Positions 1,074 to 15,124 of a DNA stretch of 64,000 nt are shown piece by piece. The notes beneath the pieces were generated by a model. That model ran no database searches and was not told where the DNA came from. It was given only the letters and a program-made list of their open reading frames with translations. Both the position numbers and the translations under genes were made by a program. This DNA comes from a virus. The stretch spans positions 1-64,000 of IMG/VR virus record IMGVR_UViG_3300036804_000165; one strand, written 5' to 3'. Numbering within the stretch: the stretch's first letter is position 1; each line of letters starts with the position of its first letter.

Positions 1074-1144
1074 CCTGCTAGGGAAACACCTAGTAGGCGA
1101 TGCGCGCATGTGCGTTCATCGCAAGCCTACAATCAGAGGACACC
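1074..1144 (+). promoter_or_regulatory. Hairpin/SD leader module 1
   Basis: Two overlapping hairpins, 1074-1097 (CCTGCTAGG with CCTAGTAGG) and 1094-1130 (GTAGGCGATG with CATCGC..GCCTAC), share bases 1094-1097 and so exclude each other. CAGAGGACACC follows at 1134-1144, four bases before the ATG of the 1149 gene. Confidence 0.7.
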
Positions 1145-1148
1145 TACG

Positions 1149-1610
1149 ATGGCAAAAGATATCAAGAATGCTGCTCCCCGTACTCAGGTCTATGTTCGCG
1201 CGTTGACGCGTGCGAAAGGCGCGACTGCGACGGAATTGAAACAGGCAGTGATTGACGCGAACCTCCCTCGTCGAGCGGAGGCGAAGAACGTCGCGACGAT
1301 GACGCAATTCACGTCGCACAATTCGTACAGCCTCACGCTGCTTGCAGCGACGTTCGGATATGCGTTCCTCGCAGTTGATAACCTCAAGTCCGATCGGACG
1401 TATTTCTTCCGTTCGCCGAAGAACGCGGAATTTTTCGATCGGATGATTGCGGAACAGGCGGAAGAGGAGCGCAACGCGAAGGCGGAACGTGAGGCTGCGA
1501 AGGCTGCGAAGCAGGCTGCGAAGGCGGAGCGCGATGCGCGCAAGGCTTCCAAGGCTGCGACACCTCCGAAGGCTTCCAAGGCTGCGGAAGGCGAGCGCGC
1601 GAGCGTCTAA
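1149..1610 (+). CDS. Small DNA-binding-like protein with Lys/Ala tail
   Basis: 153 residues. The ATG at 1149 is chosen because the CAGAGGACACC leader ends just before it. Residues about 15-90 look like a winged helix of the DUF3489 kind (GATATELKQAV, then FTSHNSYSLTLLAATFG and a wing). Residues about 100-153 are almost only Ala, Lys, Glu and Arg: a long charged helix able to bind nucleic acid. First gene of the left cassette array and followed by a hairpin module. DNA binding is inferred from family resemblance and charge. The 7301 gene is a related design. Confidence 0.7.
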   Translation: MAKDIKNAAPRTQVYVRALTRAKGATATELKQAVIDANLPRRAEAKNVATMTQFTSHNSYSLTLLAATFGYAFLAVDNLKSDRTYFFRSPKNAEFFDRMIAEQAEEERNAKAEREAAKAAKQAAKAERDARKASKAATPPKASKAAEGERASV

Positions 1611-1632
1611 CACTCGCTCGCGATAAGCGGAC

Positions 1633-1708
1633 TAAAGCAGGCGGAACGCGCAAGCGTTTGCCTGTTTTAGCCTCCTTATCTGACGATATGGAGCGATCAG
1701 AGGACACC
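1633..1708 (+). promoter_or_regulatory. Hairpin/SD leader module 2
   Basis: Hairpin 1633-1669 pairs TAAAGCAGGC with GCCTGTTTTA. TCAGAGGACACC ends at 1708, four bases before the ATG at 1713. Confidence 0.75.
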
Positions 1709-1712
1709 TTAA

Positions 1713-1982
1713 ATGACCGATCAAATGCACGATGTCACCATCTTACAGGTGAATGCACATCGAGCCAAAGTCTTCGTCAACACCGTCTATGTCGGAAAAA
1801 TCCGCATTGACGCCGACCAATCGCGCATCTTGTTTCGTTCGTCACGAGACGCATGGAACCGTGCGATCTACGAGATCGATCCCGAGACCGACATCGCCAA
1901 TCTCGCTGACAACCAACTGGATGTTTTCATCCAAGAGGCGATCAAGGCTTACCACCGGTACTACGCTCCCAAGCGCGCTTAG
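1713..1982 (+). CDS. Unknown small phage protein, 89 aa
   Basis: 89 residues; ATG four bases after the TCAGAGGACACC leader. The chain starts with a beta-like stretch (VTILQVNAHRAKVFVNTVYVGKIRID) and ends in a helix rich in aromatic and basic residues. No signal peptide or membrane segment. I do not recognise the family. Lies alone between two hairpin modules, so it is probably its own translation unit. Confidence 0.7.
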   Translation: MTDQMHDVTILQVNAHRAKVFVNTVYVGKIRIDADQSRILFRSSRDAWNRAIYEIDPETDIANLADNQLDVFIQEAIKAYHRYYAPKRA

Positions 1983-1986
1983 CGTA

Positions 1987-2067
1987 CTGAACCAGGCGGA
2001 AGGCTCCCAGTCTTTGCCTGATTCAGCCTGCTAATCCCAGGACTTACCCCATCCTTCAGAGGACACC
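1987..2067 (+). promoter_or_regulatory. Hairpin/SD leader module 3
   Basis: Hairpin 1987-2026 (CTGAACCAGGC with GCCTGATTCAG), small second hairpin CCTG..CAGG (2027-2041), then TCAGAGGACACC ending at 2067. Confidence 0.75.
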
Positions 2068-2072
2068 GAACA

Positions 2073-2231
2073 ATGAGAACCGCCCTTTTCGCGCTCGTCT
2101 TTGCGGTCGCGATTGCGCTGGTGTTTGCGAGCGCGTTGCTCGCGACCGACCAGCGTTCATCCGGATTGATCTGCATGGACCAGCACACGACCGATGGAGC
2201 GTGCCACCGCCTCGTGCGCGGAACGCTCTAG
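2073..2231 (+). CDS. Tiny membrane-anchored protein, 52 aa
   Basis: 52 residues. ATG at 2073 is five bases after CAGAGGACACC. Residues 3-23 are one hydrophobic segment (ALFALVFAVAIALVFASALLA), a signal anchor or uncleaved signal peptide. The short remainder holds two cysteines (LICMD and GACHR) that could pair outside the cytoplasm. Family not recognised. Placement in its own cassette between hairpin modules supports a real gene despite its size. Confidence 0.6.
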   Translation: MRTALFALVFAVAIALVFASALLATDQRSSGLICMDQHTTDGACHRLVRGTL

Positions 2232-2243
2232 CGATTGACAGAC

Positions 2244-2322
2244 CAAAGCAGGCGGAAGGCCCAGCCTTTGCCTGCTTTAGCCTGCCGACCATCGCAGGAC
2301 CCCAGCCTTTTCAGAGGACACC
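2244..2322 (+). promoter_or_regulatory. Hairpin/SD leader module 4
   Basis: Perfect 9-bp stem AAAGCAGGC (2245-2253) with GCCTGCTTT (2270-2278), extended inside by AAGGC/GCCTT. Second hairpin CCTGC..GCAGG (2281-2298). TCAGAGGACACC at 2311-2322. Confidence 0.8.
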
Positions 2323-2327
2323 AGACA

Positions 2328-2672
2328 ATGCCAACCACGACGATTATTGACTATCGCGCCGTTCCGCGCGCGTCGCGTGCAAAGCCGACCTACGCGCTTT
2401 GCACCGATAGCGAACAGAGCCGCTTTCTGACAACCGAGAACAAATGGCGGCTCGCGCCCAACGCGAAAATCCGCCTGTTCGCCAGCCGCGCCGCCATCGA
2501 TGCGTTCGTCCGCTCGCCGGAGGCCGTCCCCGCCATCTATGCGCTGAACCGCGCCTTTCCCGATGTAGGGACGATGCCGATACAGTTTACGCCGCCTGCC
2601 CCTCGCGCCGATCTGCGAGGCGCCACCAAGGTTACGCCGAGCTATTCGCTGCGCTCGTTCGAACGCCGATAA
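2328..2672 (+). CDS. Unknown phage protein, 114 aa
   Basis: 114 residues from the ATG at 2328, five bases after the leader. Basic and rich in Ala, Arg and Pro. The middle part reads like a small mixed alpha/beta fold (TENKWRLAPNAKIRLFASRAAIDAFV). No cysteine cluster or membrane segment. Family not recognised. Single-gene cassette flanked by modules 4 and 5. Confidence 0.65.
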   Translation: MPTTTIIDYRAVPRASRAKPTYALCTDSEQSRFLTTENKWRLAPNAKIRLFASRAAIDAFVRSPEAVPAIYALNRAFPDVGTMPIQFTPPAPRADLRGATKVTPSYSLRSFERR

Positions 2673-2677
2673 GCATA

Positions 2678-2762
2678 CGGAAGCAGCGCCGATCGCCATG
2701 TCGCCGCTGTTTCCGCCTGCCAATCCGCAGGCGATCGAAGACCGATCGAATCAGAGGACACC
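2678..2762 (+). promoter_or_regulatory. Hairpin/SD leader module 5
   Basis: Stem CGGAAGCAGCG with CGCTGTTTCCG (2678-2715). Second hairpin CCTGC..GCAGG (2716-2731). TCAGAGGACACC at 2751-2762. Confidence 0.8.
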
Positions 2763-2765
2763 GAC

Positions 2766-3086
2766 ATGACGATCTACACCATATCGATGACTGACCATTT
2801 CGATGCGTCAGGAACCGATGGAGGCTTCCCGTATATCGCTTTGACCGTTTCCCATGAAGGGAAGCCCCAGACCGACATACGGATCGACTTTGAGACCGAT
2901 GGAAAGCCGGCGATCTTGAAGGCGACCAATCGCCGATCGCCGATTGATTTCTATCCCATCGGCTTCAGCAGTCACTTGGATCTCGCGTGCGCCGCCTGGA
3001 CGTTCATTCAGACCGCGCACGATAGGACCGACAACGAGCAGTATTCCGAGCTTTTCGAGGTTGCCGATTTGCTCTGGACCACATGA
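2766..3086 (+). CDS. Unknown acidic phage protein, 106 aa
   Basis: 106 residues, ATG three bases after the leader. An acidic chain with alternating beta-like stretches (FPYIALTVSHEGKPQTDIRIDF) and a C-terminal helix. No motif I can name. Own cassette; the next module has only the second hairpin. Confidence 0.65.
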   Translation: MTIYTISMTDHFDASGTDGGFPYIALTVSHEGKPQTDIRIDFETDGKPAILKATNRRSPIDFYPIGFSSHLDLACAAWTFIQTAHDRTDNEQYSELFEVADLLWTT

Positions 3087-3092
3087 CAGCCG

Positions 3093-3134
3093 CCTGCCAA
3101 TCCCGCAGGAAACCCCAACCAATCAGAGGACACC
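3093..3134 (+). promoter_or_regulatory. Hairpin/SD leader module 6, short form
   Basis: Only the small hairpin CCTGC..GCAGG (3093-3109) precedes TCAGAGGACACC (3123-3134). The large hairpin is missing, so the two parts are separable. Confidence 0.65.
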
Positions 3135-3138
3135 GCAA

Positions 3139-3267
3139 ATGCAGCATTCCGGCACCATCCTGCTCGTCGCCCTGGGCCTGCTCGCCTGGGTCTACATCGG
3201 GCGCGAAGCCGTCCGCTTCAACGATCTGCTGACCGAGACGATCGCTCATACCGTCGTTTCGCGCTGA
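3139..3267 (+). CDS. Tiny membrane protein, 42 aa
   Basis: 42 residues; ATG at 3139 four bases after the leader. Residues 5-20 (GTILLVALGLLAWVYI) form one membrane segment, followed by a short polar tail. No family recognised. Being the only open frame between two leader modules, in the right place for the SD, is the main support. Confidence 0.55.
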   Translation: MQHSGTILLVALGLLAWVYIGREAVRFNDLLTETIAHTVVSR

Positions 3268-3272
3268 CCATA

Positions 3273-3357
3273 CCGAAGCCGCGCGCGCATCCCCCGATGC
3301 GTGTCGCCGCTTCGGCCTGGCTAGCACCAGGGCAATAACGACCACTCAGAGGACACC
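3273..3357 (+). promoter_or_regulatory. Hairpin/SD leader module 7
   Basis: CCGAAGC with GCTTCGG (3273-3315), CCTGG..CCAGG (3316-3331), TCAGAGGACACC (3346-3357). Confidence 0.8.
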
Positions 3358-3365
3358 AAATTCCC

Positions 3366-3650
3366 ATGACACCACCCGAAATCATCATCCCGATGCTGAG
3401 CGCCAATGGCACGCCCGGCACCGCGCTGCTGGACGGCTACATCAATGCCATGGATGCGTTGCGCAAGGCCCGATCGGCGATGGACGAGACCGCGCCGCAC
3501 GGGCGGGATTATCCGACGACCGATATCCTGCAAATGGCGACCACGCATCACCGTATCCGCCTGGGCATGATCGACCAGATCATCGACGATTTCTACAAGA
3601 TCGGCCTCGCCGTAGGGGCCGAAACGCGCAAGCGCCGCCGCCAGCCGTGA
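3366..3650 (+). CDS. Unknown helical phage protein, 94 aa
   Basis: 94 residues from ATG 3366, eight bases after the leader. Mostly helical: a Pro-rich start, then two amphipathic helices (LLDGYINAMDALRKARSAMDE and HHRIRLGMIDQIIDDFYKIG) and a basic end. No catalytic motif visible. Single-gene cassette. Confidence 0.65.
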   Translation: MTPPEIIIPMLSANGTPGTALLDGYINAMDALRKARSAMDETAPHGRDYPTTDILQMATTHHRIRLGMIDQIIDDFYKIGLAVGAETRKRRRQP

Positions 3651-3732
3651 CCGAAGCAGCCCCGATCCTGCGGGATTGGGCGCTGTTTCGGCCTGGGCTT
3701 TCCAGGCAATCACCACCCACTCAGAGGACACC
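3651..3732 (+). promoter_or_regulatory. Hairpin/SD leader module 8
   Basis: CCGAAGCAGC (3651-3660) with GCTGTTTCGG (3682-3691); CCTGGgctttCCAGG (3692-3706); TCAGAGGACACC (3721-3732). This is the most typical copy. Confidence 0.85.
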
Positions 3733-3735
3733 GAA

Positions 3736-3879
3736 ATGAAACGCATCATTCTGGCTTGCTGCCTGCTGCTCGCCGCTTGCGACGATGGCAAGCCGATCCA
3801 CGGCATCAGCGGACCGAAAACCTCGCTGCTCAACATGGCGACCATCCATTGTTGCCTCTACGGCAACGGTCGTCGCTGA
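3736..3879 (+). CDS. Small predicted lipoprotein, 47 aa
   Basis: 47 residues. The start MKRIILACCLLLAAC is a lipoprotein signal peptide with lipobox LAAC and the lipidated Cys at residue 15. The mature part is about 33 residues. A phage lipoprotein of this size could be a superinfection-exclusion factor or a small spanin (speculation). ATG three bases after the leader; own cassette. Confidence 0.6.
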   Translation: MKRIILACCLLLAACDDGKPIHGISGPKTSLLNMATIHCCLYGNGRR

Positions 3880-3891
3880 TCGAAGCGCTGA

Positions 3892-3968
3892 CCGAAACAG
3901 CCCCATCCTCGGCGGATGGCGGCTGCTTCGGCCTGGGCTTTCCAGGGGACCAACCTTCAGAGGACACC
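3892..3968 (+). promoter_or_regulatory. Hairpin/SD leader module 9
   Basis: CCGAAACAGCC with GGCTGCTTCGG (3892-3931), CCTGGgctttCCAGG (3932-3946), TCAGAGGACACC (3957-3968). Confidence 0.85.
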
Positions 3969-3972
3969 AATC

Positions 3973-4224
3973 ATGCAAACACCACAGAAACGCGCCCGCG
4001 AGCCGGTCTACTGGATCGGCAACCCGGTCGCGTGCGACCTGTGCAGAAAGCCGTTCGGCGAGGCGGTCGGCGTCAAGATCGTCGATGGCCGGCTCGCCGT
4101 GACCGGATCGTGGGGCATTCTCGACCTGGGATGCCATCGCACGCACGGCGTCGGCGTCGGCACGGGCAAGGGCCAGGTCTACGAGCGGCAAACCGATGGC
4201 CGCTGGCTCAAAGTCGAGGGCTGA
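3973..4224 (+). CDS. Putative zinc-binding small protein
   Basis: 83 residues. CDLC (residues about 20-23) and a later LGCH look like the two halves of a small zinc site. The ending GVGTGKGQVYERQ..GRWLKVEG matches a phage small-protein family I have seen, whose function is unknown to me. ATG four bases after the leader. The next gene starts three bases after its stop, so the two form a pair. Confidence 0.7.
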   Translation: MQTPQKRAREPVYWIGNPVACDLCRKPFGEAVGVKIVDGRLAVTGSWGILDLGCHRTHGVGVGTGKGQVYERQTDGRWLKVEG

Positions 4225-4227
4225 GCG

Positions 4228-4425
4228 ATGGCGCAATATTACCATCCGCTCGACCCCGACTGCCCGGTCGTCGCCAAATTCTCGACCGATCTGACCGACG
4301 ATCCCATGACCGAGGCGATGGGTGCGCCCGTCGATGACATCATGGCGGGTTTCGCGCGCAAGCATCGGGTCAACTGCGAACGCTGCCAGCGGTACGGGGC
4401 GGCGAATATCGAAGTGAGGGACTGA
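4228..4425 (+). CDS. Unknown small protein with a CxxC pair, 65 aa
   Basis: 65 residues, beginning three bases after the previous stop and translated from the same cassette. A CERC pair lies near the C-terminus (residues about 50-53) and a lone Cys near residue 12. Could bind a metal together with a partner. Family not recognised. No CAGAGGACACC of its own, as expected for an internal cassette gene. Confidence 0.65.
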   Translation: MAQYYHPLDPDCPVVAKFSTDLTDDPMTEAMGAPVDDIMAGFARKHRVNCERCQRYGAANIEVRD

Positions 4426-4432
4426 CCGCCGG

Positions 4433-4505
4433 ACCGAAGCAGCCCACCCAGCGATGGGTGCGGCTGTTTCGGCCTCGCGATCGTGCGGGGCACTCAGAGG
4501 ACACC
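4433..4505 (+). promoter_or_regulatory. Hairpin/SD leader module 10
   Basis: CCGAAGCAGC with GCTGTTTCGG (4433-4472), inner stem CACCCA/TGGGTG, second hairpin CCtCGC..GCGgGG (4473-4490), TCAGAGGACACC (4494-4505). Confidence 0.8.
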
Positions 4506-4508
4506 ATA

Positions 4509-4832
4509 ATGATCACCATGACCCTGTTCAGCGCGGCTAGAACCGCGCTGGTCAATGCCAACGGCCGCGATCTGCCGATCGTCATGCTGGCGAGCATCGA
4601 TGCGTTCATCTTCGGCGTGGTCAAGGATACTCCGCAGAATCGGCTGATCAAGCCCGGCGGGATCCATGACACGCGACCGGAGCGGTATGTGCCGTTCTCC
4701 ATGCGATCGACGGGCGGCGCGGCGGTGATGTGGGACGATCGCGGCGATAACGATCCAACCCAAGCGATGCAGGAGATCGCCGATTTGATCGGCTGCATCG
4801 CGCGCGATGGCCGCGTCGATCCGCACCCATGA
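4509..4832 (+). CDS. Unknown phage protein, 107 aa
   Basis: 107 residues from ATG 4509, three bases after the leader. Mixed alpha/beta composition, with a hydrophobic helix (LPIVMLASIDAFIFGVV) that is not long enough to be a clear membrane span. A glycine-rich loop (TGGAAVMWDDRGD) follows. Ends with ATGA overlapping the next start. No family recognised. Confidence 0.65.
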   Translation: MITMTLFSAARTALVNANGRDLPIVMLASIDAFIFGVVKDTPQNRLIKPGGIHDTRPERYVPFSMRSTGGAAVMWDDRGDNDPTQAMQEIADLIGCIARDGRVDPHP

Positions 4833-5050
4833 AGACCGGACAGACGCTCTGGTGGATAATCGAGCATGCCACCGAGGGCGCGTTCCTCGGCTACGCGCGA
4901 CAGCGCCGCACCCGCGAGATGGCGCCGCTGTTTCGTCGCGCCGATGATCGCAAACCGGCGATGCTGTTCGGCTCGATTGCCGCCGCCGCCGAGGAACTGC
5001 AGTACATCACCGTCGATGAGCGGGACTATCAAATCGTGCCGCTCCGATAG
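4829..5050 (+). CDS. Unknown small protein, 73 aa
   Basis: 73 residues, overlapping the previous gene by the four bases ATGA, so translation is probably coupled. Basic N-terminal half, then an Ala-rich helix (MLFGSIAAAAEELQYIT). No recognised domain. Confidence 0.65.
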   Translation: MKTGQTLWWIIEHATEGAFLGYARQRRTREMAPLFRRADDRKPAMLFGSIAAAAEELQYITVDERDYQIVPLR

Positions 5051-5055
5051 CCGGA

Positions 5056-5132
5056 CCGAAGCAGCGCCATCCGCGAGGGTGCCGCTGTTTCGGCCTCGCC
5101 GTCGCTCAAGACGCCGAGGCTCAGAGGACATC
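5056..5132 (+). promoter_or_regulatory. Hairpin/SD leader module 11, variant motif
   Basis: CCGAAGCAGC with GCTGTTTCGG (5056-5093), second hairpin GCCTCG..CGAGGC (5093-5120), then TCAGAGGACATC (5121-5132), one base off the usual motif. Confidence 0.75.
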
Positions 5133-5136
5133 GACC

Positions 5137-5502
5137 ATGACCAAAACCACAGAGCCGCCGCGCTTGACCTCGCTCAGCAGCTTGGTGCGCGAGATCGCGG
5201 TGCCGGGGGAGTTGGCCTTCGCGTTCGCCACCGATCGTGTCGAACTGCTCAGGCTGATCAAGCCGAAGCCGCTCGACGCGAGCCAATCCGCCAAACTCTA
5301 CGAGATCATCGGCGTGCTGATGGAGACCAACCAGGCATTGCGCAACTACGCCGCAAGGATGACCGTGCTGGCGGAAGACCTGGGCGGCAGCATCGAAGAA
5401 ATCATCGCCGCCCAGGTGGATATCAACGAGACCGCCGCGCACGCCAAGAAGGCAACGGCGCAAGTCAAGCGCCTCGCCAGCTTTCGCGACGCCGAGGATT
5501 GA
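5137..5502 (+). CDS. Unknown helical/coiled-coil protein, 121 aa
   Basis: 121 residues. Nearly all helix, with heptad-like spacing in the second half (IGVLMETNQALRNYAARMTV and AAQVDINETAAHAKKATAQV), suggesting a coiled coil of about 70 residues. No membrane segment or cysteine. Single-gene cassette, ATG four bases after the leader. Confidence 0.65.
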   Translation: MTKTTEPPRLTSLSSLVREIAVPGELAFAFATDRVELLRLIKPKPLDASQSAKLYEIIGVLMETNQALRNYAARMTVLAEDLGGSIEEIIAAQVDINETAAHAKKATAQVKRLASFRDAED

Positions 5503-5510
5503 GCCGCTGA

Positions 5511-5587
5511 CCGAAGGCGCCCCCGTCGCAGGAGGGGCGGCGCTTTCGGCCTGGGGCTTCGCCCAGGACACCACCAGAGGACAACAC
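5511..5587 (+). promoter_or_regulatory. Hairpin/SD leader module 12, variant motif
   Basis: CCGAAGGCGCC with GGCGCTTTCGG (5511-5549), CCTGGGgcttcgCCCAGG (5550-5567), then CAGAGGACAACAC (from 5575), a variant of the SD motif. Confidence 0.8.
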
Positions 5588-5588
5588 A

Positions 5589-5855
5589 ATGGCACTCGAA
5601 CTGGGCGCTTTGCGTAAAGCGCTGATTAACGCCGGAGCCGATACGACAATGGCGGAAACCGCGTCGGAAGAGGTCGCCGGTTATGAGAACCGTCTGACCC
5701 GGCAGACGACGATGGTGCAGGCCATGCTCGCGATCGGCCTGATGATGCTCGCCAGCCAGGGCGCACTCTGGCTGGAGATCGGCAAGCTCGACGGCTCGAT
5801 GGTCGCCTTGAATACCAAGGTCGATCTGATCGCCCGCGCCGTGAACGCTCACTAA
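5589..5855 (+). CDS. Small single-span membrane protein, 88 aa
   Basis: 88 residues. About 40 polar residues, then one membrane helix at about 48-65 (MLAIGLMMLASQGALWL) and a short amphipathic tail resembling coiled-coil membrane proteins (DGSMVALNTKVDLIARAVN). Inner-membrane location is likely. Function unknown; a role at the host membrane in lysogeny or lysis timing is only a guess. ATG is two bases after the motif. Confidence 0.65.
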   Translation: MALELGALRKALINAGADTTMAETASEEVAGYENRLTRQTTMVQAMLAIGLMMLASQGALWLEIGKLDGSMVALNTKVDLIARAVNAH

Positions 5856-5869
5856 TCCGCCAATCCATA

Positions 5870-5962
5870 CCGCAACGGCTGGCGCGCGCCTCGCGAGGGG
5901 CGCGCGTTTGCTGTTTCGGCCTGGATTTGCAATGACCTGCCAGGGGGCAAACAGAGGACACC
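5870..5962 (+). promoter_or_regulatory. Hairpin/SD leader module 13
   Basis: A less regular large hairpin (5870-5919) built on GGCGCGCG/CGCGCGTT, second hairpin CCTGG..CCAGG (5920-5944), CAGAGGACACC (5952-5962). Confidence 0.7.
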
Positions 5963-5968
5963 ATAACA

Positions 5969-6202
5969 ATGAAACTGGACTTAACCCGCTGCGAAGCCGC
6001 GGCCTGGGTCGAAGCCGAGATGACGATCGTCACCAACGGCGTCGATCCCGGTGCGCGGCTGCAAATGGCGCGGGGAACTTTGGCAGCGTGCCGGCAAGCA
6101 CCGGACGTCGCGGCCCTCATGCCTCATGCGATCGCCGCCTGCCTGCTGCTGATCGCCCGCCTCGAAGCGACCGAGGATCGACTGAAATCCGCCGCCGACT
6201 AA
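5969..6202 (+). CDS. Unknown small helical protein, 77 aa
   Basis: 77 residues, helical and Ala-rich, with three cysteines that form no close cluster. A central hydrophobic helix (IAACLLLIARLEAT) is probably a buried rather than a membrane helix. ATG six bases after the leader. Family not recognised. Confidence 0.6.
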   Translation: MKLDLTRCEAAAWVEAEMTIVTNGVDPGARLQMARGTLAACRQAPDVAALMPHAIAACLLLIARLEATEDRLKSAAD

Positions 6203-6209
6203 CCGCATA

Positions 6210-6295
6210 CCGAGGCATCGCCACGGTCTTTCGAGATCGTGCCGATGTCTCGGCCTGGGTTAGCTACACCGCCACCAGGGGCATCAGAGGACACC
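6210..6295 (+). promoter_or_regulatory. Hairpin/SD leader module 14
   Basis: CCGAGGCATCG with CGATGTCTCGG (6210-6253). Stem bases differ from other copies on both sides. Second hairpin CCTGG..CCAGG (6254-6279), TCAGAGGACACC (6284-6295). Confidence 0.8.
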
Positions 6296-6300
6296 AACAC

Positions 6301-6597
6301 ATGAAGCACAACAAAACGCCCGGCGGCACGCCGCTGGGCGTCATCAGTGCGCTCGTCGCCGACGCGCGCACGCCGGGTCAACCCGGCATCCCCGAGCAAG
6401 CGGTCAAGGCGCCGGTTCCCACGCCGCCGCCACGATCGATGAGCATCATCGTGACCGTCCTGACGTTCGTGGGATTGCTGTCGCTGTACCTGGGCCTGCT
6501 GGCGATGACCGGTGGGCTGCACGATTATCGCTCACCCGATGACGACCGGCCAATGGCTCAGAGCCAAGCACCGCTCAATATCGTCACGAGCCGCTAA
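6301..6597 (+). CDS. Small single-span membrane protein, 98 aa
   Basis: 98 residues from ATG 6301. A Pro/Ala-rich polar N-terminal part of about 45 residues, one membrane helix at about 48-67 (IIVTVLTFVGLLSLYLGLLA), then about 30 polar residues. Function unknown. Single-gene cassette. The 6203-6300 gap upstream is wholly taken up by the leader module. Confidence 0.6.
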   Translation: MKHNKTPGGTPLGVISALVADARTPGQPGIPEQAVKAPVPTPPPRSMSIIVTVLTFVGLLSLYLGLLAMTGGLHDYRSPDDDRPMAQSQAPLNIVTSR

Positions 6598-6612
6598 GCA
6601 CCGAACCATTGA

Positions 6613-6693
6613 CGACAGCGCTGCCCGAGCCGTTCGGGAGCGCTTTCGCCTTGGGTTCGCCTGGGGACAATCGAAACCTTTTCAGAGGACACC
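6613..6693 (+). promoter_or_regulatory. Hairpin/SD leader module 15
   Basis: Large hairpin CGACAGCGCT with AGCGCTTTCG (6613-6648), enclosing GCCCGA/TCGGG. TCAGAGGACACC (6682-6693). Nearly the same DNA as module 16, with paired changes in the stem. Confidence 0.85.
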
Positions 6694-6698
6694 AACCC

Positions 6699-6998
6699 AT
6701 GACAGAACAAGAACTGATCGTCGGCGCGCGGGTGCGGCTGATCCGCGACGTGTGCGGCGGTGGCGGCGCAGGCACGATCATTGACACGATCAAGGCGGGC
6801 GAGACCGCTGAGATCGTGGCGATCGACCTGGATGCCGCTATTCAGACTGGCGATGCGGCAGTCGTCGTGCGCTTCGACAACCACCTCGAAACCCTGGATG
6901 ACTGGGAAAACACGCTCAATGTTGGCCTCGACCGCGACGTCATGGACTGGGATGCCACGATCGATGATTTCGAAGTGGAGCGGGGCTTCGGGCAATGA
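6699..6998 (+). CDS. SH3-like beta protein, 99 aa
   Basis: 99 residues. The opening IVGARVRLIRDV..AGTIIDTIKAGE and the later VVVRFDNH have the strand-turn pattern of small SH3/KOW-like barrels, usually protein- or RNA-binding. The C-terminal third is acidic. Overlaps the next gene by ATGA, so the two are coupled. The SH3-like call is from pattern only. Confidence 0.65.
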   Translation: MTEQELIVGARVRLIRDVCGGGGAGTIIDTIKAGETAEIVAIDLDAAIQTGDAAVVVRFDNHLETLDDWENTLNVGLDRDVMDWDATIDDFEVERGFGQ

Positions 6999-7204
6999 CA
7001 GACGCAATGAGCGACAGAGCCATGAAGCTGCTGATCCGCAACATCTGTAAGGCGGCGCTTGATGACGCCAAGGGTGATTTCGCGCATCAGCGCCAACGGA
7101 TCGAAACATCCTTCGTCGATGACCGCACGATCCAGATCAAGTTGTTTGGTCCCGGCAACCCGCCACCGTCTTACCTGACCGTCACGGTAAAAGGGTCGAT
7201 TTGA
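6995..7204 (+). CDS. Unknown small protein, 69 aa
   Basis: 69 residues, starting within the stop of the previous gene (ATGA). N-terminal helix (RAMKLLIRNICKAALDDAKG), then two beta-like stretches. No recognised family. Internal cassette gene without its own CAGAGGACACC. Confidence 0.65.
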   Translation: MTDAMSDRAMKLLIRNICKAALDDAKGDFAHQRQRIETSFVDDRTIQIKLFGPGNPPPSYLTVTVKGSI

Positions 7205-7212
7205 ACCATTGA

Positions 7213-7295
7213 CGACAGCGGCGCCCGAGCCGTTCGGGGCCGCTCTCGCCTTGGGTTCATCCCCGAGGACTACCGAAACCTTTTCAGAGGACACC
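7213..7295 (+). promoter_or_regulatory. Hairpin/SD leader module 16
   Basis: CGACAGCGGC with GCCGCTCTCG (7213-7248), enclosing GCCCGA/TCGGG. TCAGAGGACACC (7284-7295). Duplicate of module 15 in which two adjacent stem pairs have changed on both strands of the stem. Confidence 0.85.
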
Positions 7296-7300
7296 TACAG

Positions 7301-9114: not shown

Positions 9115-9120
9115 CCCATA

Positions 9121-9179
9121 CCGAAACAGCGCCCGCTGCTTCGGCCTGGGGATTAGGCCCTGGGGTAACAGAGGACACC
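9121..9179 (+). promoter_or_regulatory. Hairpin/SD leader module 18
   Basis: Compact hairpin CCGAAACAGCG with CGCTGCTTCGG (9121-9144), second hairpin GGCCT..AGGCC (9143-9159), CAGAGGACACC (9169-9179). Confidence 0.8.
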
Positions 9180-9183
9180 ACCA

Positions 9184-9810
9184 ATGAGCAAACCAGCCAA
9201 AAAGCGTCTCCCGCCGCGCTGGGCGGAGCAGCTTCGCTACGACATGGTTTTCGCCGAGGACGCCATCACCACCAAAGGCGAACTTCCCCCGGTGTTCGTT
9301 CTGCACAACCCAGATCGCAGCGTCACGCCGTTCGTGGTGCCGCTGCGTGATGCCGCGCACAAGCGCCGGGTCTACCAGTTCCTCGCCCTGACACTCCTCG
9401 CCAGCGGCGCGGTGGGCTTCACGATGATGACCGAGGCGTGGATGCGCGATGAGTTAGCCGAGCCCGGCGAAAGCGCGGAGGCGGCGATGGCGCGGGTCGA
9501 GCGCGACGGGCCGATGCCCAGCCAGGTATCGAACCGCAAAGAGATCGTCAGCATCGTCATGGTCTATCGCGACGACGCAGACGAGCGCCAGACCAGCGGC
9601 GTGATCGGCGAGATCGTGCGCGCCGACGATGCCTCGGTCGCCGCTATCAAGTGGGAGGTGAACGCGGAAACGAGCGCCGCTGGCGCGATGGTCGACATCA
9701 TGCCGGTCATCGCGCCAGACCCCCGCCATCGCGCGGCCGCGGCGCGGCTGCTGATCGAGATCGGACCGACGATCATGCAAGTGCTCGGCATCGTCGAGGT
9801 GGCGGTATGA
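9184..9810 (+). CDS. Unknown phage protein, 208 aa
   Basis: 208 residues. Basic start, then a region with a hydrophobic helix near 65-85 (VYQFLALTLLASGAVGFTMM), followed by alternating strands and helices (IVSIVMVYRDDADERQTSGV). No named family. Overlaps the next gene by ATGA. First gene of a two-gene cassette. Confidence 0.65.
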   Translation: MSKPAKKRLPPRWAEQLRYDMVFAEDAITTKGELPPVFVLHNPDRSVTPFVVPLRDAAHKRRVYQFLALTLLASGAVGFTMMTEAWMRDELAEPGESAEAAMARVERDGPMPSQVSNRKEIVSIVMVYRDDADERQTSGVIGEIVRADDASVAAIKWEVNAETSAAGAMVDIMPVIAPDPRHRAAAARLLIEIGPTIMQVLGIVEVAV

Positions 9811-10121
9811 GCCAGACCATCGCCGATATCCACTTCTCGATGCAGATCGAGGATGATCTGGTCGTGCTGACCGACCACGGCTCCGGTTATTCGATCACCA
9901 ACGGCGCCGAACTGGTGATCGCAGAACTGGCGCTGCTGCTGGGCGCCGATTTCGCCCGCTTCCGCGTGATCTACCGCGACACCGAGCAGGACTGGGACGG
10001 CATCGCTCATCACGGTGATCGTTTCATCCGCTTCGTGCCGCTGCGCACCCGTGACCGGCACGTTGCCGTTGACCTCGCCAAACGCGGTGTCGACGCCAAA
10101 GGCGATCCCTGGAAGAAATGA
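9807..10121 (+). CDS. Unknown phage protein, 104 aa
   Basis: 104 residues, coupled to the previous gene by ATGA overlap. Acidic, mixed alpha/beta, with a hydrophobic helix in the middle (LVIAELALLLGADFARF). The C-terminus is basic and ends KK. No recognised motif. Confidence 0.65.
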   Translation: MSQTIADIHFSMQIEDDLVVLTDHGSGYSITNGAELVIAELALLLGADFARFRVIYRDTEQDWDGIAHHGDRFIRFVPLRTRDRHVAVDLAKRGVDAKGDPWKK

Positions 10122-10133
10122 CCGAACCGCTGA

Positions 10134-10210
10134 CGACAGCAGCCACCCAGCGCGCGGTGGCTGCTATCGCCTGGGTTCGCCCCGGGGCATGACCTTTTTC
10201 AGAGGACACC
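10134..10210 (+). promoter_or_regulatory. Hairpin/SD leader module 19
   Basis: CGACAGCAGCCACC with GGTGGCTGCTATCG (10134-10169). TCAGAGGACACC (10199-10210). Confidence 0.8.
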
Positions 10211-10214
10211 AAAG

Positions 10215-10634
10215 ATGAAAATCACCTTCAACCGCGTCGGTGTGGAGCGTCTGCTCGCGCACACCAAGGCGGCCAAGGACCACAAAAAGACCTACGCCGA
10301 AGAGGCTGACGGCAAAAAGTGTGTCGGGCCTGCGCTGTGGCTGGTCGGCGATGACGGCGTCTACTTGATGAGCAACGGCAAGCCCGCGCTCAAGCCCGAG
10401 GAGGGCGACGGCCACTTCGTCGTCTATGCCGATCAGATCAACCCCAAGACGATGGCCTTCGACGACTGGTGGGCCGCGAAAAACACCGCGTTCGGGGGTG
10501 ACGACGGGGTCGATGGCATCGCCGCCGGCGAGATCGAACAGGCGCTGGCGGCCGCCCCCGGCAAGCCGTTGACGCTGGACCTGACGCCAAAGGCGATCAC
10601 CCTGCACGTCGCCGCACCGAAGCGGAAGCATTGA
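10215..10634 (+). CDS. DUF3085-like protein
   Basis: 139 residues. The core GPALWLVGDDGVYLMSNG with preceding basic helix (LLAHTKAAKDHKKTY) fits the DUF3085 family, found in alphaproteobacterial plasmids and phages; function unknown. Compact single domain without cysteine cluster or signal. ATG four bases after the leader; single-gene cassette. The family call is from memory of the pattern. Confidence 0.7.
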   Translation: MKITFNRVGVERLLAHTKAAKDHKKTYAEEADGKKCVGPALWLVGDDGVYLMSNGKPALKPEEGDGHFVVYADQINPKTMAFDDWWAAKNTAFGGDDGVDGIAAGEIEQALAAAPGKPLTLDLTPKAITLHVAAPKRKH

Positions 10635-10723
10635 CCGAGGCCGCCCGTCGATTTGCGCATGTGCGCAAATGTGCAAATACGGGCGGCATCGGCCTGGGCT
10701 TCCCCAGGGCTTTCAGAGGACAC
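10635..10723 (+). promoter_or_regulatory. Hairpin/SD leader module 20
   Basis: CCGAGGCCGCCCG with CGGGCGGCATCGG (10635-10692). The loop itself holds a near-perfect palindrome (10651-10670, TTTGCGC/GCGCAAA). CCTGGgcttccCCAGG (10693-10708), TCAGAGGACAC (10713-10723). Confidence 0.8.
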
Positions 10724-10727
10724 AAAC

Positions 10728-11735
10728 ATGCAACAACCCCAAGCCTACCGAACCGCCAGCGGCCCGGTGCTGGGCATCGAAGCCTCGCTGCGTGACATCC
10801 GAGAATGGCGGCCCACCGTCACGCAAATCCGCGAGCCGATCCTGACCTTCATGGTCGTCGGCACATCGATGTTCGCCGCCGACATGCCGCCGCTGGCGCG
10901 TGCCTTCGCGCCGACGCAAGACGATGTCGAAGGCATCGCCGAACTGACCGAGGTAGCGGTGCGGGCCGGGCGGCTGATCGATTTCGGCGCCTGGACCAAT
11001 GACGTCATCAAGTACGGCGGCAACCGTGGCGGCCCGCTCTACTCGCGCGACGTCATCGGTCATCCGTTCCGCGATCCGTATGTGTTCTTCCATACCTGGG
11101 AGGACGCATCGGCGGCCTATCTGGTCAACCCGCTGGAGCCGGAGCGGACCGGCGGCGATGTCGAGTGCATCGAACTGCAACCGATCGAGATCAAAGGCAA
11201 TCGGGCGCTGATGATCGGCGATCGGGCGGTGCTCACCCCGGACGCCAGCAACTTCGCGGGATGGTCGAAATACCATTGCCGATCGATGCCGTCGCTGTGG
11301 CGGTATCTGCCGGGCGCCGAGGCGATCAACACCGGCGGCAAGCCTGAAAACGCCGCAGCGGGCAACGTGCTCGACCCGCTGATGACCGCGCTCTTGATCC
11401 TGTCCACCAGGGGCATCGCGCGCGAAACCGTTGCCGCGCCGGACAAGCTGCAGAAGGCCCGCCGCAAGAACGGCAAGCCGCTGATCCCACCCTATCAACG
11501 GGTGGACTCGGCGCCCTACGTCACGGCGATCCAGAATCGCGCGGCACGGGGGCGCGCGCCGTCACAAGGCGGCACGCACGCTTCGCCGGTCATGCATCTG
11601 CGCATGGGTCATGTGCGGACTTATGCGTCGGGCGTGCAGACGTTCGTGCGCGACGCCATCGTCAACGCCAGCGAGGCAACCCGCGCCGCCTTCACGATCG
11701 GACGCAGTCACTACACGGTCAAACAAAAAGTCTGA
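10728..11735 (+). CDS. Conserved phage protein, 335 aa
   Basis: 335 residues, the largest gene of the left array. The last third (KLQKARRKNGKPLIPPYQRV, later SPVMHLRMGHVRTY) matches the C-terminal pattern of a phage protein family that I remember as common and uncharacterised. The first two thirds have no motif I can name. No signal or membrane segment. ATG four bases after the leader. Single-gene cassette. Confidence 0.7.
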   Translation: MQQPQAYRTASGPVLGIEASLRDIREWRPTVTQIREPILTFMVVGTSMFAADMPPLARAFAPTQDDVEGIAELTEVAVRAGRLIDFGAWTNDVIKYGGNRGGPLYSRDVIGHPFRDPYVFFHTWEDASAAYLVNPLEPERTGGDVECIELQPIEIKGNRALMIGDRAVLTPDASNFAGWSKYHCRSMPSLWRYLPGAEAINTGGKPENAAAGNVLDPLMTALLILSTRGIARETVAAPDKLQKARRKNGKPLIPPYQRVDSAPYVTAIQNRAARGRAPSQGGTHASPVMHLRMGHVRTYASGVQTFVRDAIVNASEATRAAFTIGRSHYTVKQKV

Positions 11736-11743
11736 CCGCAGAC

Positions 11744-11808
11744 GGCAGTCGCATGGGCCCGCGCTCATGCGGCTGCCGCCTGGGATCGGCCCAGGACTCA
11801 GAGGACAC
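11744..11808 (+). promoter_or_regulatory. Hairpin/SD leader module 21
   Basis: GGCAGTCGCATG with CATGCGGCTGCC (11744-11777), CCTGGGatcggCCCAGG (11779-11795), TCAGAGGACAC (11798-11808) followed by a longer gap to the ATG. Confidence 0.8.
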
Positions 11809-11816
11809 AACCAAGA

Positions 11817-12272
11817 ATGAAGATTATGCTCGCCGAAGCCGTGACCCTGGACATCAGGCCAGGGGTGCGACTGTCGATTGAGGCCGATGGCTCGGTGCTG
11901 CTCGAACCCGAGGCGCCGCCGGGGGAGCCAGAGCCTCCGACAGTGGCGAAGCCCAAGGTGCTCCGATCGCGTCCGATCACCCGCCGCGCCTCGGGGGCGA
12001 TATTCACCGGCACCATCGAGAATGATTTGCTGGTGAAGCTCGCGCAGGAGTCGGATCGCTGGGTCGGCTTCGGCGACGTGGTGAAACTCCTCTACCCCGA
12101 GGTGCCATTGCGAGCCAACGGCAAGCCGACACAGGACTACGAGAACCTCCGTATCGCCCTGCGCCGGCTGCTCAAGCTCGGTGAGGTCGAGCAGCGCTCC
12201 ACCGGGGCAGGGAACGCCTCCGGGCGCGGCTTGAAGGCGCAATACCGCATCGTCAAGAAGCCCGTGTCATGA
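11817..12272 (+). CDS. Winged-helix-like protein, 151 aa
   Basis: 151 residues. N-terminal part (1-60) is acidic and Pro-rich. Residues about 65-150 look like a winged helix: a helix (NDLLVKLAQESDRW), a second (GFGDVVKLLYPE), a recognition helix (YENLRIALRRLLKLGEVEQR) and a wing ending in AQYRIVKK. DNA binding is likely but inferred. Single-gene cassette. Confidence 0.65.
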   Translation: MKIMLAEAVTLDIRPGVRLSIEADGSVLLEPEAPPGEPEPPTVAKPKVLRSRPITRRASGAIFTGTIENDLLVKLAQESDRWVGFGDVVKLLYPEVPLRANGKPTQDYENLRIALRRLLKLGEVEQRSTGAGNASGRGLKAQYRIVKKPVS

Positions 12273-12299
12273 TCGAGCGCGCGTATGCTCAGCCATTGA

Positions 12300-12368
12300 C
12301 CGAACCCGCGACACGTCGAGCGTGTCGCAGGCTCGGCCTGGGGCTGGTCCCAGGGTTTCAGAGGACAC
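12300..12368 (+). promoter_or_regulatory. Hairpin/SD leader module 22
   Basis: CCGA..CCGCGACAC with GTGTCGC.GG.TCGG (12300-12336), CCTGGGgctggtCCCAGG (12337-12354), TCAGAGGACAC (12358-12368). Confidence 0.8.
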
Positions 12369-12373
12369 AGACA

Positions 12374-12673
12374 ATGCCAAACATAAGCGATTTCGAGGAT
12401 GCCTTCGCCTTGGCGCGGGCGTATCCCGACACCTTCGAGGCGGTGCCCGCAGCCGAGACCGCGAGGCTCATGGCGGGCGACTGCGTCAAGGTCTGCCGCA
12501 ACGACGAGCGATTCTGGGTGCTGATCCACACCAACGCGGACGGCCGGATCAGCGGCGAGGTCAACAACGAGCTGGTCGATCCGCGCAACGCCGACATACC
12601 GTGTGGGACCATCGTCGGCCTGGAATACCGCCATGTCTACCAGACCTACCGGACGCCCAAGGAGCGGCGCTGA
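12374..12673 (+). CDS. Unknown phage protein, 99 aa
   Basis: 99 residues. Middle part (GDCVKVCRNDERFWVLIHTNADGRISGEV) looks like a small beta barrel, reminiscent of proteins that bind a partner at ribosomes or DNA; no family named. The next gene starts on its stop (TGATG), so the three genes to 13514 are one cassette. Confidence 0.65.
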   Translation: MPNISDFEDAFALARAYPDTFEAVPAAETARLMAGDCVKVCRNDERFWVLIHTNADGRISGEVNNELVDPRNADIPCGTIVGLEYRHVYQTYRTPKERR

Positions 12674-13341
12674 TGGACAAGCTCACGCCGGAACAGATGT
12701 TTCCGAAGAGCCTGGGACTGATCCGCGCGGCCCTGTCGCAGGCCGAGCGGCTGGCGATCCCGCTGCCCAAGCAGTTGCGCACCCGCCCACGCGACGCACG
12801 GGGCTATCCGATCCCGTTCATCGTGGTGATCGACCGCCGCCGGCAGCCGCAGTTCACCATCAACGACAGCACCCGTGTCACCGCCTGCCGCACCCGCTCG
12901 CTCTGCGGCATCTGCGGCAAGCGGCTGGACAAAGACCTGTGGTTCGTCGGCGGCGCGCGCTGCTTCCTGCACCCGCGTGGCGCGTTCGTCGATCCGCCGA
13001 GCCATTACGCGTGCGCCGAATACGCGCTGCGGGTCTGCCCGTTCCTCGCGGCACCCAGCTACGCCAAGCGGATCGACGACCGCAAGCTGCCGCCGGGCGG
13101 GTTGCCCGATGGCATGGCGCTCGGCCGCGTGGACTTCATGCCGCCCGCGCAGCCCGAACGCTTCGGCCTCGGCAGCACGCGCGCCTATCGCTGGGTGTCG
13201 CACGACAGGGACGGGGTCTACGTGGTCGACGCCTGGGACTATGTCGAATGGTGGAAGACCGGCGAGCCGGTCAACGCGCCGGACGGACTGCCGGCGGATC
13301 AGCCGATGCTGCGCAACTGGCGGGGAGGCAACGGCGCATGA
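12673..13341 (+). CDS. Cysteine-rich conserved hypothetical, 222 aa
   Basis: 222 residues. CGICGKRLDKDLWFVGG followed by HYACAEYALRVCPFL (Cys, His and Cys spaced as in a metal site) is the hallmark of a widespread uncharacterised family of phages and actinobacterial or alphaproteobacterial mobile DNA, probably zinc-binding. Function is unknown. Start TGATG-coupled with the previous gene and stop ATGA-coupled with the next. Confidence 0.7.
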   Translation: MDKLTPEQMFPKSLGLIRAALSQAERLAIPLPKQLRTRPRDARGYPIPFIVVIDRRRQPQFTINDSTRVTACRTRSLCGICGKRLDKDLWFVGGARCFLHPRGAFVDPPSHYACAEYALRVCPFLAAPSYAKRIDDRKLPPGGLPDGMALGRVDFMPPAQPERFGLGSTRAYRWVSHDRDGVYVVDAWDYVEWWKTGEPVNAPDGLPADQPMLRNWRGGNGA

Positions 13342-13514
13342 GCGAGGGGGAAAAACTGGCACGCGCGGTGCTGCTGTTTTTCCGTGGCGGCCACTGGTCG
13401 GCCTGCGACCGCGAGGTCTGGCAGGCGCTGACCGGCTCGGAGGACGCGACGACGCGGGCGTTGTGCGATCTGGCGCGGCGGGTGCAGGCCGCCGAGGCAG
13501 CGATCCCGCGCTGA
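13338..13514 (+). CDS. Unknown small protein, 58 aa
   Basis: 58 residues, starting inside the previous stop (ATGA). Two short helices with a WSACDREVWQAL stretch. No family recognised. Last gene of a three-gene cassette, followed at once by module 23. Confidence 0.6.
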   Translation: MSEGEKLARAVLLFFRGGHWSACDREVWQALTGSEDATTRALCDLARRVQAAEAAIPR

Positions 13515-13522
13515 CGATGATG

Positions 13523-13591
13523 GACCGAGGCAGCACCAGGCACCCCCTGGCTGCTGTCTCGGCCTGGGATCGTCCCAGGAATGGAGGACAC
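13523..13591 (+). promoter_or_regulatory. Hairpin/SD leader module 23, variant motif
   Basis: CCGAGGCAGC with GCTGTCTCGG (13523-13561), inner CCAGG/CTGG pairing, perfect CCTGGGatcgtCCCAGG (13562-13578), then GGAGGACACC (13582-13591) directly against the ATG. Confidence 0.8.
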
Positions 13592-13592
13592 C

Positions 13593-14192
13593 ATGAGCGA
13601 TGAACACCAAACTATCCAGCACACGGTGCTCTACGACGCCGCGGCGCGGGCGAACTCGACGCGGGTCTGCGGCGATTGCCAACTGTGCTGCAAGCTCGTG
13701 CCGGTCAGTTCGATCGGCAAGCCGGCGAACACGCGCTGTCGTCACCAGCGCGTCGGCAAGGGCTGTCTGGTCTATCATCAGGCCGGGATGCCGCCCGAGT
13801 GCGACCTGTGGTCATGCAAGTGGCTGCTGGGGGGCGAGACGGCGGACCTGCAACGCCCCGATCGCGTGCATTATGTCATCGACATGATGCCCGACATGAT
13901 CGGCGCGATCCCGCCGGGGAGCAGCGAGCGTCACGACGTCATGGTCACCCAGGTCTGGCTCGATCCGGCGTTTCCGTTGGCGCATCGCGATCCCGGCCTG
14001 CGCGGCTATGCCGAGCAGATCGCCGCGCGCGATCAAATGCCGATCCTGGTCCGCATCGGCTCGTCGGAGGCGTTCCTGCTGGTCGCGCCATCCTTGGCGA
14101 GTGACGGCCAATGGCACGAGCAATCCATCAACCGCCAGCCCGAGCAGCCCAAGCACGGGATGATGTTTCTCGACCGGATGATGGGAGAATGA
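13593..14192 (+). CDS. YkgJ-like cysteine-cluster protein
   Basis: 199 residues. CGDCQLCCKLVPV near residue 26 is the CxxCxxCC signature of the YkgJ family, followed by further cysteines (RCRHQRVGKGC, PECDLWSCKW). Such clusters bind zinc or iron; the enzyme activity is not known. Start at 13593 is favoured over the in-frame ATG twelve bases upstream because the SD-like GGAGGACACC ends at it. First of four overlapping genes to 15053. Confidence 0.75.
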   Translation: MSDEHQTIQHTVLYDAAARANSTRVCGDCQLCCKLVPVSSIGKPANTRCRHQRVGKGCLVYHQAGMPPECDLWSCKWLLGGETADLQRPDRVHYVIDMMPDMIGAIPPGSSERHDVMVTQVWLDPAFPLAHRDPGLRGYAEQIAARDQMPILVRIGSSEAFLLVAPSLASDGQWHEQSINRQPEQPKHGMMFLDRMMGE

Positions 14193-14422
14193 CCATGGGC
14201 GAGCCAAATTGGCACGACGATCCCGACGTGCAGGCGTACGGGCAGATGATGCAGGCCGCGCTGGTGATGGGGCGCGTCAAGCTCGGCGCGGACAAGGCGC
14301 TGTCCGTGGCGCTCGCCACGATCGCCGAGGAAATGGAGCGTCATCTCGGGCGGCAGACCGTCGCGTGGGTGCTACGCACCTTCGCCGAGGGGCTGGCGAG
14401 CGGGCGGGGAGGCGAGCCATGA
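14189..14422 (+). CDS. Unknown helical protein, 77 aa
   Basis: 77 residues, ATGA-coupled to the YkgJ-like gene. Helical, with long Ala/Leu/Met-rich helices (MMQAALVMGRVKLGADKAL and AEEMERHLGRQTVAWVL). No motif named. Ends ATGA-overlapping the next gene. Confidence 0.65.
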   Translation: MTMGEPNWHDDPDVQAYGQMMQAALVMGRVKLGADKALSVALATIAEEMERHLGRQTVAWVLRTFAEGLASGRGGEP

Positions 14423-14793
14423 CGCGCCGGTACGGCCTGCGGCACTACATCCTCGACGAGGCCGACAACCCGGTGGAACTGCCGATGCCCGAGGGGGTGC
14501 CGCTGCTCGACGCGCTCGCCGCGGTGATCAAGCCGCACGCCCAGTGGATCGCCGATAACGAGGCCCGGATGCGGGTCGCCGAGGATTTTATCGACGATGT
14601 GCGTGTCTCGACGGTGTTTCTCAGTGTCGGGATCAGCTTCGGCGAGCCGCCGGACATGTTCGAGACCATGCTGTTCAAGCCGGGGCAGGAGGCGTTCCTG
14701 TTCGGCCGCTGCGCCACCTGGAACGAGGCCAAGGGGCTGCACGACTTCGCGGTGGCGATGGTGAAGAACGGAGAACTGCCATGGCAATCGTGA
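14419..14793 (+). CDS. Unknown phage protein, 124 aa
   Basis: 124 residues, coupled at both ends. Mixed alpha/beta; the second half (STVFLSVGISFGEPPDMFET and KGLHDFAVAMVKNGE) looks like a compact domain. Family not recognised. Overlaps the following gene by 13 bases. Confidence 0.65.
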   Translation: MTRRYGLRHYILDEADNPVELPMPEGVPLLDALAAVIKPHAQWIADNEARMRVAEDFIDDVRVSTVFLSVGISFGEPPDMFETMLFKPGQEAFLFGRCATWNEAKGLHDFAVAMVKNGELPWQS

Positions 14794-15053
14794 TCAAGAT
14801 CGTCAGTCGCGGCGACGGCAAGCCGACGCCGCACGCCGAGCGCTACCTCGCGCACTATGATCCCGATGCCGATCCGCTGAACGGCTGGGTCGAAAGCACC
14901 GAGTTCCTCGACGAGGCGCTGCTGTTCGCCAGCATAACCGAGGCGACGGAATGCTGGCGGCGGGTCAGCAAGACGATGCCGCGACGGCTGAGCGACGGGC
15001 GCCCCAACCGCCCGTTAAGCGCCTACACCTGTAGCTTTCAGCCGGTCGACTGA
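14781..15053 (+). CDS. Unknown small protein, 90 aa
   Basis: 90 residues, starting 13 bases inside the previous gene. Starts AIVIKIVSRGDGKPTPH, a beta strand and loop, then a helix (ITEATECWRRVSKTMPRRL). No family named. Last gene of a four-gene cassette before module 24. Confidence 0.65.
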   Translation: MAIVIKIVSRGDGKPTPHAERYLAHYDPDADPLNGWVESTEFLDEALLFASITEATECWRRVSKTMPRRLSDGRPNRPLSAYTCSFQPVD

Positions 15054-15063
15054 CCCTCGGACG

Positions 15064-15124
15064 GATGCAGCGCCGCCGCGCGCTGCATCTGCCTGGGGAT
15101 CATCCCAGGATTTCAGAGGACACC
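15064..15124 (+). promoter_or_regulatory. Hairpin/SD leader module 24
   Basis: Perfect 10-bp stem GATGCAGCGC (15064-15073) with GCGCTGCATC (15080-15089), CCTGGGgatcatCCCAGG (15092-15109), TCAGAGGACACC (15113-15124). Confidence 0.85.

Follow-up and report, generated by a model that had tools for sequence, protein, structure and literature searches.

A 64,000-base window out of the 64,791 bases of a metagenomic phage record (IMG/VR, IMGVR_UViG_3300036804_000165) carries an operon of small gene cassettes in which one RNA element, built from three helices termed P1, P2 and P3, recurs directly upstream of a common ribosome-binding leader. We propose, with a probability of about 0.6, that this repeated element is an RNA-processing junction. 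Processing is favoured mainly because hammerhead ribozymes replace P1-P2-P3 at orthologous junctions of related phages. The original prediction for this region had described two successive hairpins and a Shine-Dalgarno motif before 24 cassettes; helix P1 over the upstream stop codon, a complementary leader sequence at 979-994, the occurrence of the module in other phages and the hammerheads of these relatives were absent from it.

Three helices before a fixed ribosome-binding leader

The leader motif (T)CAGAGGACACC, named SAS by analogy with cluster K mycobacteriophages, stands just before an ATG at exactly 24 plus-strand sites between 1134 and 15114, as had been claimed. Eighteen copies are exact and six differ by one or two bases (5122, 5575, 10714, 11799, 12359 and 13582), with a gap of 0-8 nt between the 11-mer and the ATG; a further exact copy, at 16847, is not followed by an ATG. 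Allowing up to two mismatches, the window contains 45 matches compared with 16.7 ± 4.7 in shuffled sequence, where none of 100 shuffles reached 45, and a reversed-pattern control yielded no exact match. Variants in relatives include CAGAGGGACACC and CAGAGGAACACC. The GAGG of SAS can presumably pair with the anti-Shine-Dalgarno sequence of 16S rRNA, which would leave its remaining conserved bases unexplained. One exact SAS is also found on the minus strand at 31257-31267, where 4 nt separate it from the start codon (ATG) of a frame of 134 codons and P1-P2-P3 is absent.

At 22 of the 24 sites, a large hairpin (P2) is followed directly by a hairpin starting with CC (P3), so that the fixed order of hairpins described before is retained for these copies and fails at 3124, which has the second hairpin only, and at 1134, where the leader is longer and different. 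A description as two hairpins nevertheless remains incomplete, since a third helix, P1, accompanies P2 and P3, and two of the three are mutually exclusive. The element reads, from 5' to 3', P1 5' strand, a short loop ending in A, P2, CC(T/C), P3 5' strand, P3 3' strand, SAS and AUG, with most often 4 nt between the end of P3 and SAS. P1 (for instance GATAAG/CTTATC at 1698 and GAACC/GGTTC at 6683, 7285 and 10200) encloses P2, usually measures 5-8 bp and usually holds the upstream stop codon, and the A and CC of the internal loop between both helices, adjoining P2, are invariant. P3 stems include CCTGGG/CCCAGG, CCTGC/GCAGG and CTCC/GGAG.

Complete modules were assigned by P1/P3 parsing with permutation and by covariance-model search, with boundaries partly set by hand. 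All on the plus strand, they lie at 1619-1708 (44.1 bits), 1974-2067, 2230-2322, 2665-2762 (weak P1), 3261-3357, 3638-3732, 3879-3968, 4421-4505, 5043-5132, 5498-5585, 5858-5962, 6197-6295 (P1 CTAACC/GGTTAG, 6285), 6600-6693 and its recent sister copy 7200-7295, 8178-8266 (P1 GCATGA/TCATGC, 8256; P3 CCTGATC/GATCAGG), 9108-9179 (shortest P2), 10121-10210 (best match in the window, 57.2 bits), 10622-10724, 11730-11809 (weak P1), 12287-12369, 13512-13592 (P1 GACGAT/ATCGTC, 13582; SAS variant TGGAGGACACC) and, as the last one, 15049-15124. The stretch at 3074-3134 (19.8 bits) combines SAS with a P3-like hairpin and lacks P1 and P2.

Pairing is kept in P1, P2 and P3 despite sequence change, in line with what had been noted for the stems. 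When flanks were exchanged between modules of the same phage, applying the same pairing-based selection to the exchanged flanks, the value observed for P1 was 899 versus 742 ± 18 and that for P3 877 versus 758 ± 15, while P2 retained 599 of 649 pairs versus 471 ± 10; none of 20,000 permutations reached the observed value for any helix. The same held for the window alone (P1, 309 versus 251 ± 11; P3, 334 versus 277 ± 10; each 0 of 20,000). A covariation score of 0.52, against 0.20 after shuffling, drops when partners are slid along the alignment (A1), the structure having been derived from the same sequences. Between the sister copies 6600-6693 and 7200-7295, two base pairs of P2 have changed on both strands with pairing retained (C-G to G-C and T-A to C-G).

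G.U pairs exceed A.C on the plus strand, by 37:18 in P2 and 43:20 in P1, and the element would therefore act as plus-strand RNA. Direct repeats flanking gene cassettes, and neighbouring copies that resemble recent duplicates as those at 6600-6693 and 7200-7295 do, might also be read as a repeat working at the DNA level, be it a site of recombination or cassette exchange or the target of a DNA-binding protein. We consider this very improbable, because it leaves the excess of G.T over A.C on the coding strand unaccounted for, because SAS occurs only in ribosome-binding position, and because orthologous junctions can differ in element type although the gene is retained. A stoperator role of SAS in DNA was likewise rejected for its strictly ribosome-binding position.

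P1 and P3 are mutually exclusive because the P1 3' strand overlaps the P3 5' strand by a few nucleotides in nearly all copies, and the predicted energies of both forms are close (mean difference 1.7 kcal/mol). A P1/P3 pseudoknot is less likely than exclusion, given the overlap of a few nucleotides and P3 loops as short as 4-6 nt. The upstream stop codon lies in or adjoining P1 in nearly all modules and ends 0-16 nt before P2, mostly 5-8 nt, the exceptions being four or five of 59 modules. A ribosome halting at this stop could thus melt P1 and let P3 form, tuning SAS translation to upstream translation without any cleavage, and the energy-balanced exclusivity of the two helices would suit such a switch. 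We regard it as unlikely: a compact genome places stop codons there anyway, SAS lies outside P1, P2 and P3 and hence is free in both forms, and a hammerhead at the same position, as relatives carry, would not preserve switching.

Exchange with hammerhead ribozymes in related phages

Relatives were identified by pattern scans and a covariance model, and the comparison set comprises nine contigs, several of them incomplete. Eight further IMG/VR phages contain the module (L162, L163, L165, L012, L166/L167, L201, L209 and L210). A covariance-model search, which the original prediction had proposed as a check, returned strong matches only in the sense direction and in the early operon of these phages, and found no module in 35 records reached via terminase similarity. 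Rfam 15 gave no match at the gathering threshold in the window and five relatives, a low-threshold Rfam search of part of the window gave chance microRNA-type and small RNA matches only, and blastn of one module returned five 23-nt matches at E 0.9, as expected by chance. An exact-pattern scan of 84,980 bacterial and archaeal genomes yielded four single chance hits and hence neither prophage nor host.

Hammerhead cores with CUGANGA, GAAA and three stems are absent from the window, in which type II and type III descriptors found no match; they are present only in L162, L201 and L209, with CCGATGA in L163 and in one copy of L209. Type III cores lie in L162 and L201 (Rfam RF00008, 29.8 bits, E about 1e-4 in a small search) between the first SAS and its complement in the operon leader, where L163 has its CCGATGA copy. 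Type II hammerheads precede SAS sites twice in L201 and five times in L209. The type II descriptor gave 7 hits, each of them in sense direction and 3-15 nt upstream of a SAS, against a background of one hit in 6.0 million shuffled strand-bases and one in 2.9 million strand-bases of other contigs. In coordinates of the reverse complement (rc), the hammerheads at SAS junctions, of types II and III, fall at L201 rc 13200-13400 and 14240-14320, L209 rc 15380-19730 and L162 rc 5340-5400.

Both element types can occur within one operon: five of the seven intergenic SAS sites of L209 (identical to L206) have type II hammerheads and two have P1-P2-P3. Three junctions show the exchange between phages. 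The hammerhead at L209 16095 corresponds to P1-P2-P3 at window 7285, L162 7155, L165 12820 and L201 13767, that at L209 19736 to P1-P2-P3 at L162 9263 and L012 11836, and that at L209 16945 to P1-P2-P3 at L210 3604. The earlier suggestion was an RNA element with an insulating, processing or regulatory role for each cassette, combined with a fixed ribosome-binding leader. Covariation of all three helices and the G.U excess support action at the RNA level, and hammerhead replacement makes processing the best supported of the three options, with cleavage itself predicted.

Several observations weigh against the processing junction. Hammerhead exchange shows a shared position, not shared chemistry, and the hammerhead matches stay below the Rfam gathering threshold (29.8 versus 48.5 bits), with one descriptor-found hammerhead lacking any Rfam match. 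Two copies (L163 rc 6408 and L209 rc 19714) have the CCGATGA core, with C for U at core position 4, and are possibly active variants or decayed copies. P2 spans 24-70 nt, which is loose for one recognition site, and site 3124 does without P1 and P2. Finally, for 17 held-out modules the observed value was reached by 393 (P1) and 282 (P3) of 20,000 within-phage permutations, a moderate support that is partly due to many modules sharing one P1 sequence and to some being misparsed.

Modules appear to be gained or lost at gene boundaries, because genes that are internal to cassettes of the window (4228-4425 and 12736-13287) have homologues in relatives that come with a SAS module of their own (L165 14784 and L167 6273).

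Leader, transcript and genes of the operon

The leader of the operon holds, at 979-994 on the plus strand, the sequence GGTGTGTCCTCCTCTG, which is the reverse complement of SAS with a short insert (anti-SAS) and whose predicted pairing partner is the first gene's SAS (1134-1144). The first-gene leader (1002-1148, plus strand) consists of a long P2-like hairpin, a CCTGCTAGG..CCTAGTAGG hairpin, a third hairpin and this first SAS. A single anti-SAS was found upstream of the first gene in all eight phages for which the operon start is covered (the window, L162, L163, L165, L012, L166, L201 and L209), and the pairing is part of the minimum free energy structure of all eight leaders, with probabilities of 0.82-1.0. 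The form searched does not occur again in the 1.56 Mb examined. Anti-SAS can co-vary with the first SAS, as in L166 (CCTTCTCTG with CAGAG..AAGGAACA) and L209 (GTTCCTC with GAGGAAC). A minus-strand gene start as the origin of the reversed SAS at 979-994 was rejected, since no conserved reading frame follows. Anti-SAS may keep the first gene silent.

The single anti-SAS, the invariant A and CC beside P2 and the presence of one element in 22 or more copies within one operon would also suit a translational operator, in which a phage RNA-binding protein, for instance from the small basic genes at the operon start, reads the A/CC loop or SAS and controls all cassettes. Such a protein is hypothetical, however, the P1 sequence is free to vary, and the replacement of the element by hammerheads would be hard to understand if it were a protein-binding site; we therefore hold this explanation to be quite improbable.

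An intrinsic terminator with a U-tract (GCGCAACAC..GTGTTGCGC TTTTTTTT), read directly from the sequence and with a loop exceeding the length allowed by the terminator scan, lies at 16718-16764 on the plus strand and is the probable end of the operon. This terminator, together with the lack of any sigma-70-like promoter in a scan of the plus strand of 1-17000, makes a single rightward transcript of about 16 kb from one promoter near the leader likely. The stable GC-rich hairpins directly after stop codons could in principle be intrinsic or factor-dependent terminators or attenuators at each cassette end. We rate this as highly unlikely: no U-tract directly follows the stems, as had been noted before and as reading of the copies bears out, terminator-like sites occur at chance level (15 versus 12.8), the cassette that follows has no promoter of its own, two mutually exclusive helices (P1 and P3) are retained, and the proper U-tract terminator sits after the last cassette. 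Promoters for each cassette were rejected on the same scans as the terminators.

Upstream of anti-SAS, a conserved TTGACAT(C/T)GT(G/A)AATC or CAT(C/T)GTGAATC is present in the leaders of L163 rc and L165, and farther upstream in L162 and L012; it may belong to the operon promoter. In most of these operons, the first gene (1149-1607 in the window, and its relatives) encodes a small protein with a basic, Lys/Ala-rich tail. Those genes of the 1.1-16.7 kb region that were tested, all directed rightward, have no or almost no known relatives, and neither megablast of the region nor tblastn of two cassette proteins matched isolated phages. A second protein family, present in most of these phages (window 7301-8182), has weak DUF3489 matches.

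Elsewhere, the window encodes RecT-like and ParB-like proteins, and its minus strand carries terminase, portal and tail genes as well as an open frame (20406-21125) whose match to ribosome modulation factor falls just short of the threshold (RMF; 27.2 bits, cut-off 27.9). By terminase comparison, the nearest isolated phages are Rhizobium phages, at 59% identity.

Proposed processing and comparison with known systems

In the proposed processing, P1, the A/CC internal loop and P2 would fold as one long interrupted hairpin at each cassette boundary, and the cut would most probably fall immediately 5' of the conserved CC, at the border of P2 and P3. Hairpin P2 would then form the 3' end of the upstream mRNA, and the downstream strand, released from P1, would refold into a 5'-terminal hairpin P3 followed by SAS and AUG. 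Each cassette would thereby become its own insulated, equally translatable mRNA with the same kind of 5' end, and anti-SAS would hide the first gene's SAS until the leader domain is cut or opened. The conservation of both exclusive helices would be explained if P1 is needed for cutting and P3 afterwards. Hammerhead cleavage in relatives should give products of the same shape, with stem III at the upstream 3' end and stem I at the downstream 5' end. Cleavage, cut site, enzyme and effect on translation are deduced here from anatomy, and the cutting agent could be RNase III, another nuclease or the RNA itself. In the last case, which we consider unlikely, P1-P2-P3 would be a new class of small self-cleaving ribozyme replacing hammerheads at these junctions, with P1/P3 exchange parting the products after the cut.

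Although hammerheads next to phage genes have been on record since 2011, their function has not been settled. In this phage group, a single operon seems to be cut at as many as 24 boundaries by means of two unrelated RNA elements, always joined to the same ribosome-binding leader, which renders the function proposed for phage ribozymes, to turn one transcript into insulated single-cassette mRNAs, directly testable. The junctions are a source of natural parts with which genes could be insulated, and a ribozyme or nuclease site of a new kind may be concealed in them.

Early genes of phage T7 are separated by RNase III sites, hairpins with an internal loop, cutting of which leaves stabilising hairpins. 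In both systems, a polycistronic early transcript carries hairpins with internal loops between its genes, and in most copies the predicted folds of P1 and P2 amount to long double-stranded RNA with an internal loop between genes, as typical of RNase III sites. T7, in contrast, has few sites, without a fixed leader or P1/P3 exchange, and cutting by RNase III is hypothetical for the window. Synthetic insulators of the RiboJ type place cleavage and a hairpin directly before a ribosome-binding site and make expression independent of upstream sequence; the order proposed here is the same, although RiboJ is engineered and of hammerhead type.

The closest analogue of the leader in a literature search of open-access full text (PMC3203893, PMC11373665, PMC12699233) is SAS/ESAS of cluster K mycobacteriophages, in which SAS is a 13-bp GGGATAGGAGCCC before the start codon (Pope et al. 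2011, PMC3203893). Both are short asymmetric sequences with a Shine-Dalgarno core a few nucleotides before many non-structural genes, confined to the non-structural part of the genome, with an inverted repeat upstream of many copies; the window motif stands before non-structural gene starts after intergenic gaps. Their sequences are unrelated (GGGATAGGAGCCC there, CAGAGGACACC here). Moreover, RNA pairing is not supported for the ESAS repeats, which harbour SigA-like promoters (PMC11373665) and represent a promoter-like DNA element, whereas here RNA pairing covaries and the plus strand shows no promoter-like site.

In prophages, too, hammerheads flank individual genes; they cleave in vitro as well as in E. 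coli (Perreault et al. 2011, PMC3088659) and were proposed to cut long phage transcripts into single-gene mRNAs (PMC3088659). The window elements differ in having no hammerhead core and another helix order and loop, and self-cleavage of P1-P2-P3 is hypothetical. They share with prophage hammerheads the intergenic position in phage operons, and relatives of the window phage carry hammerheads at the very same SAS junctions.

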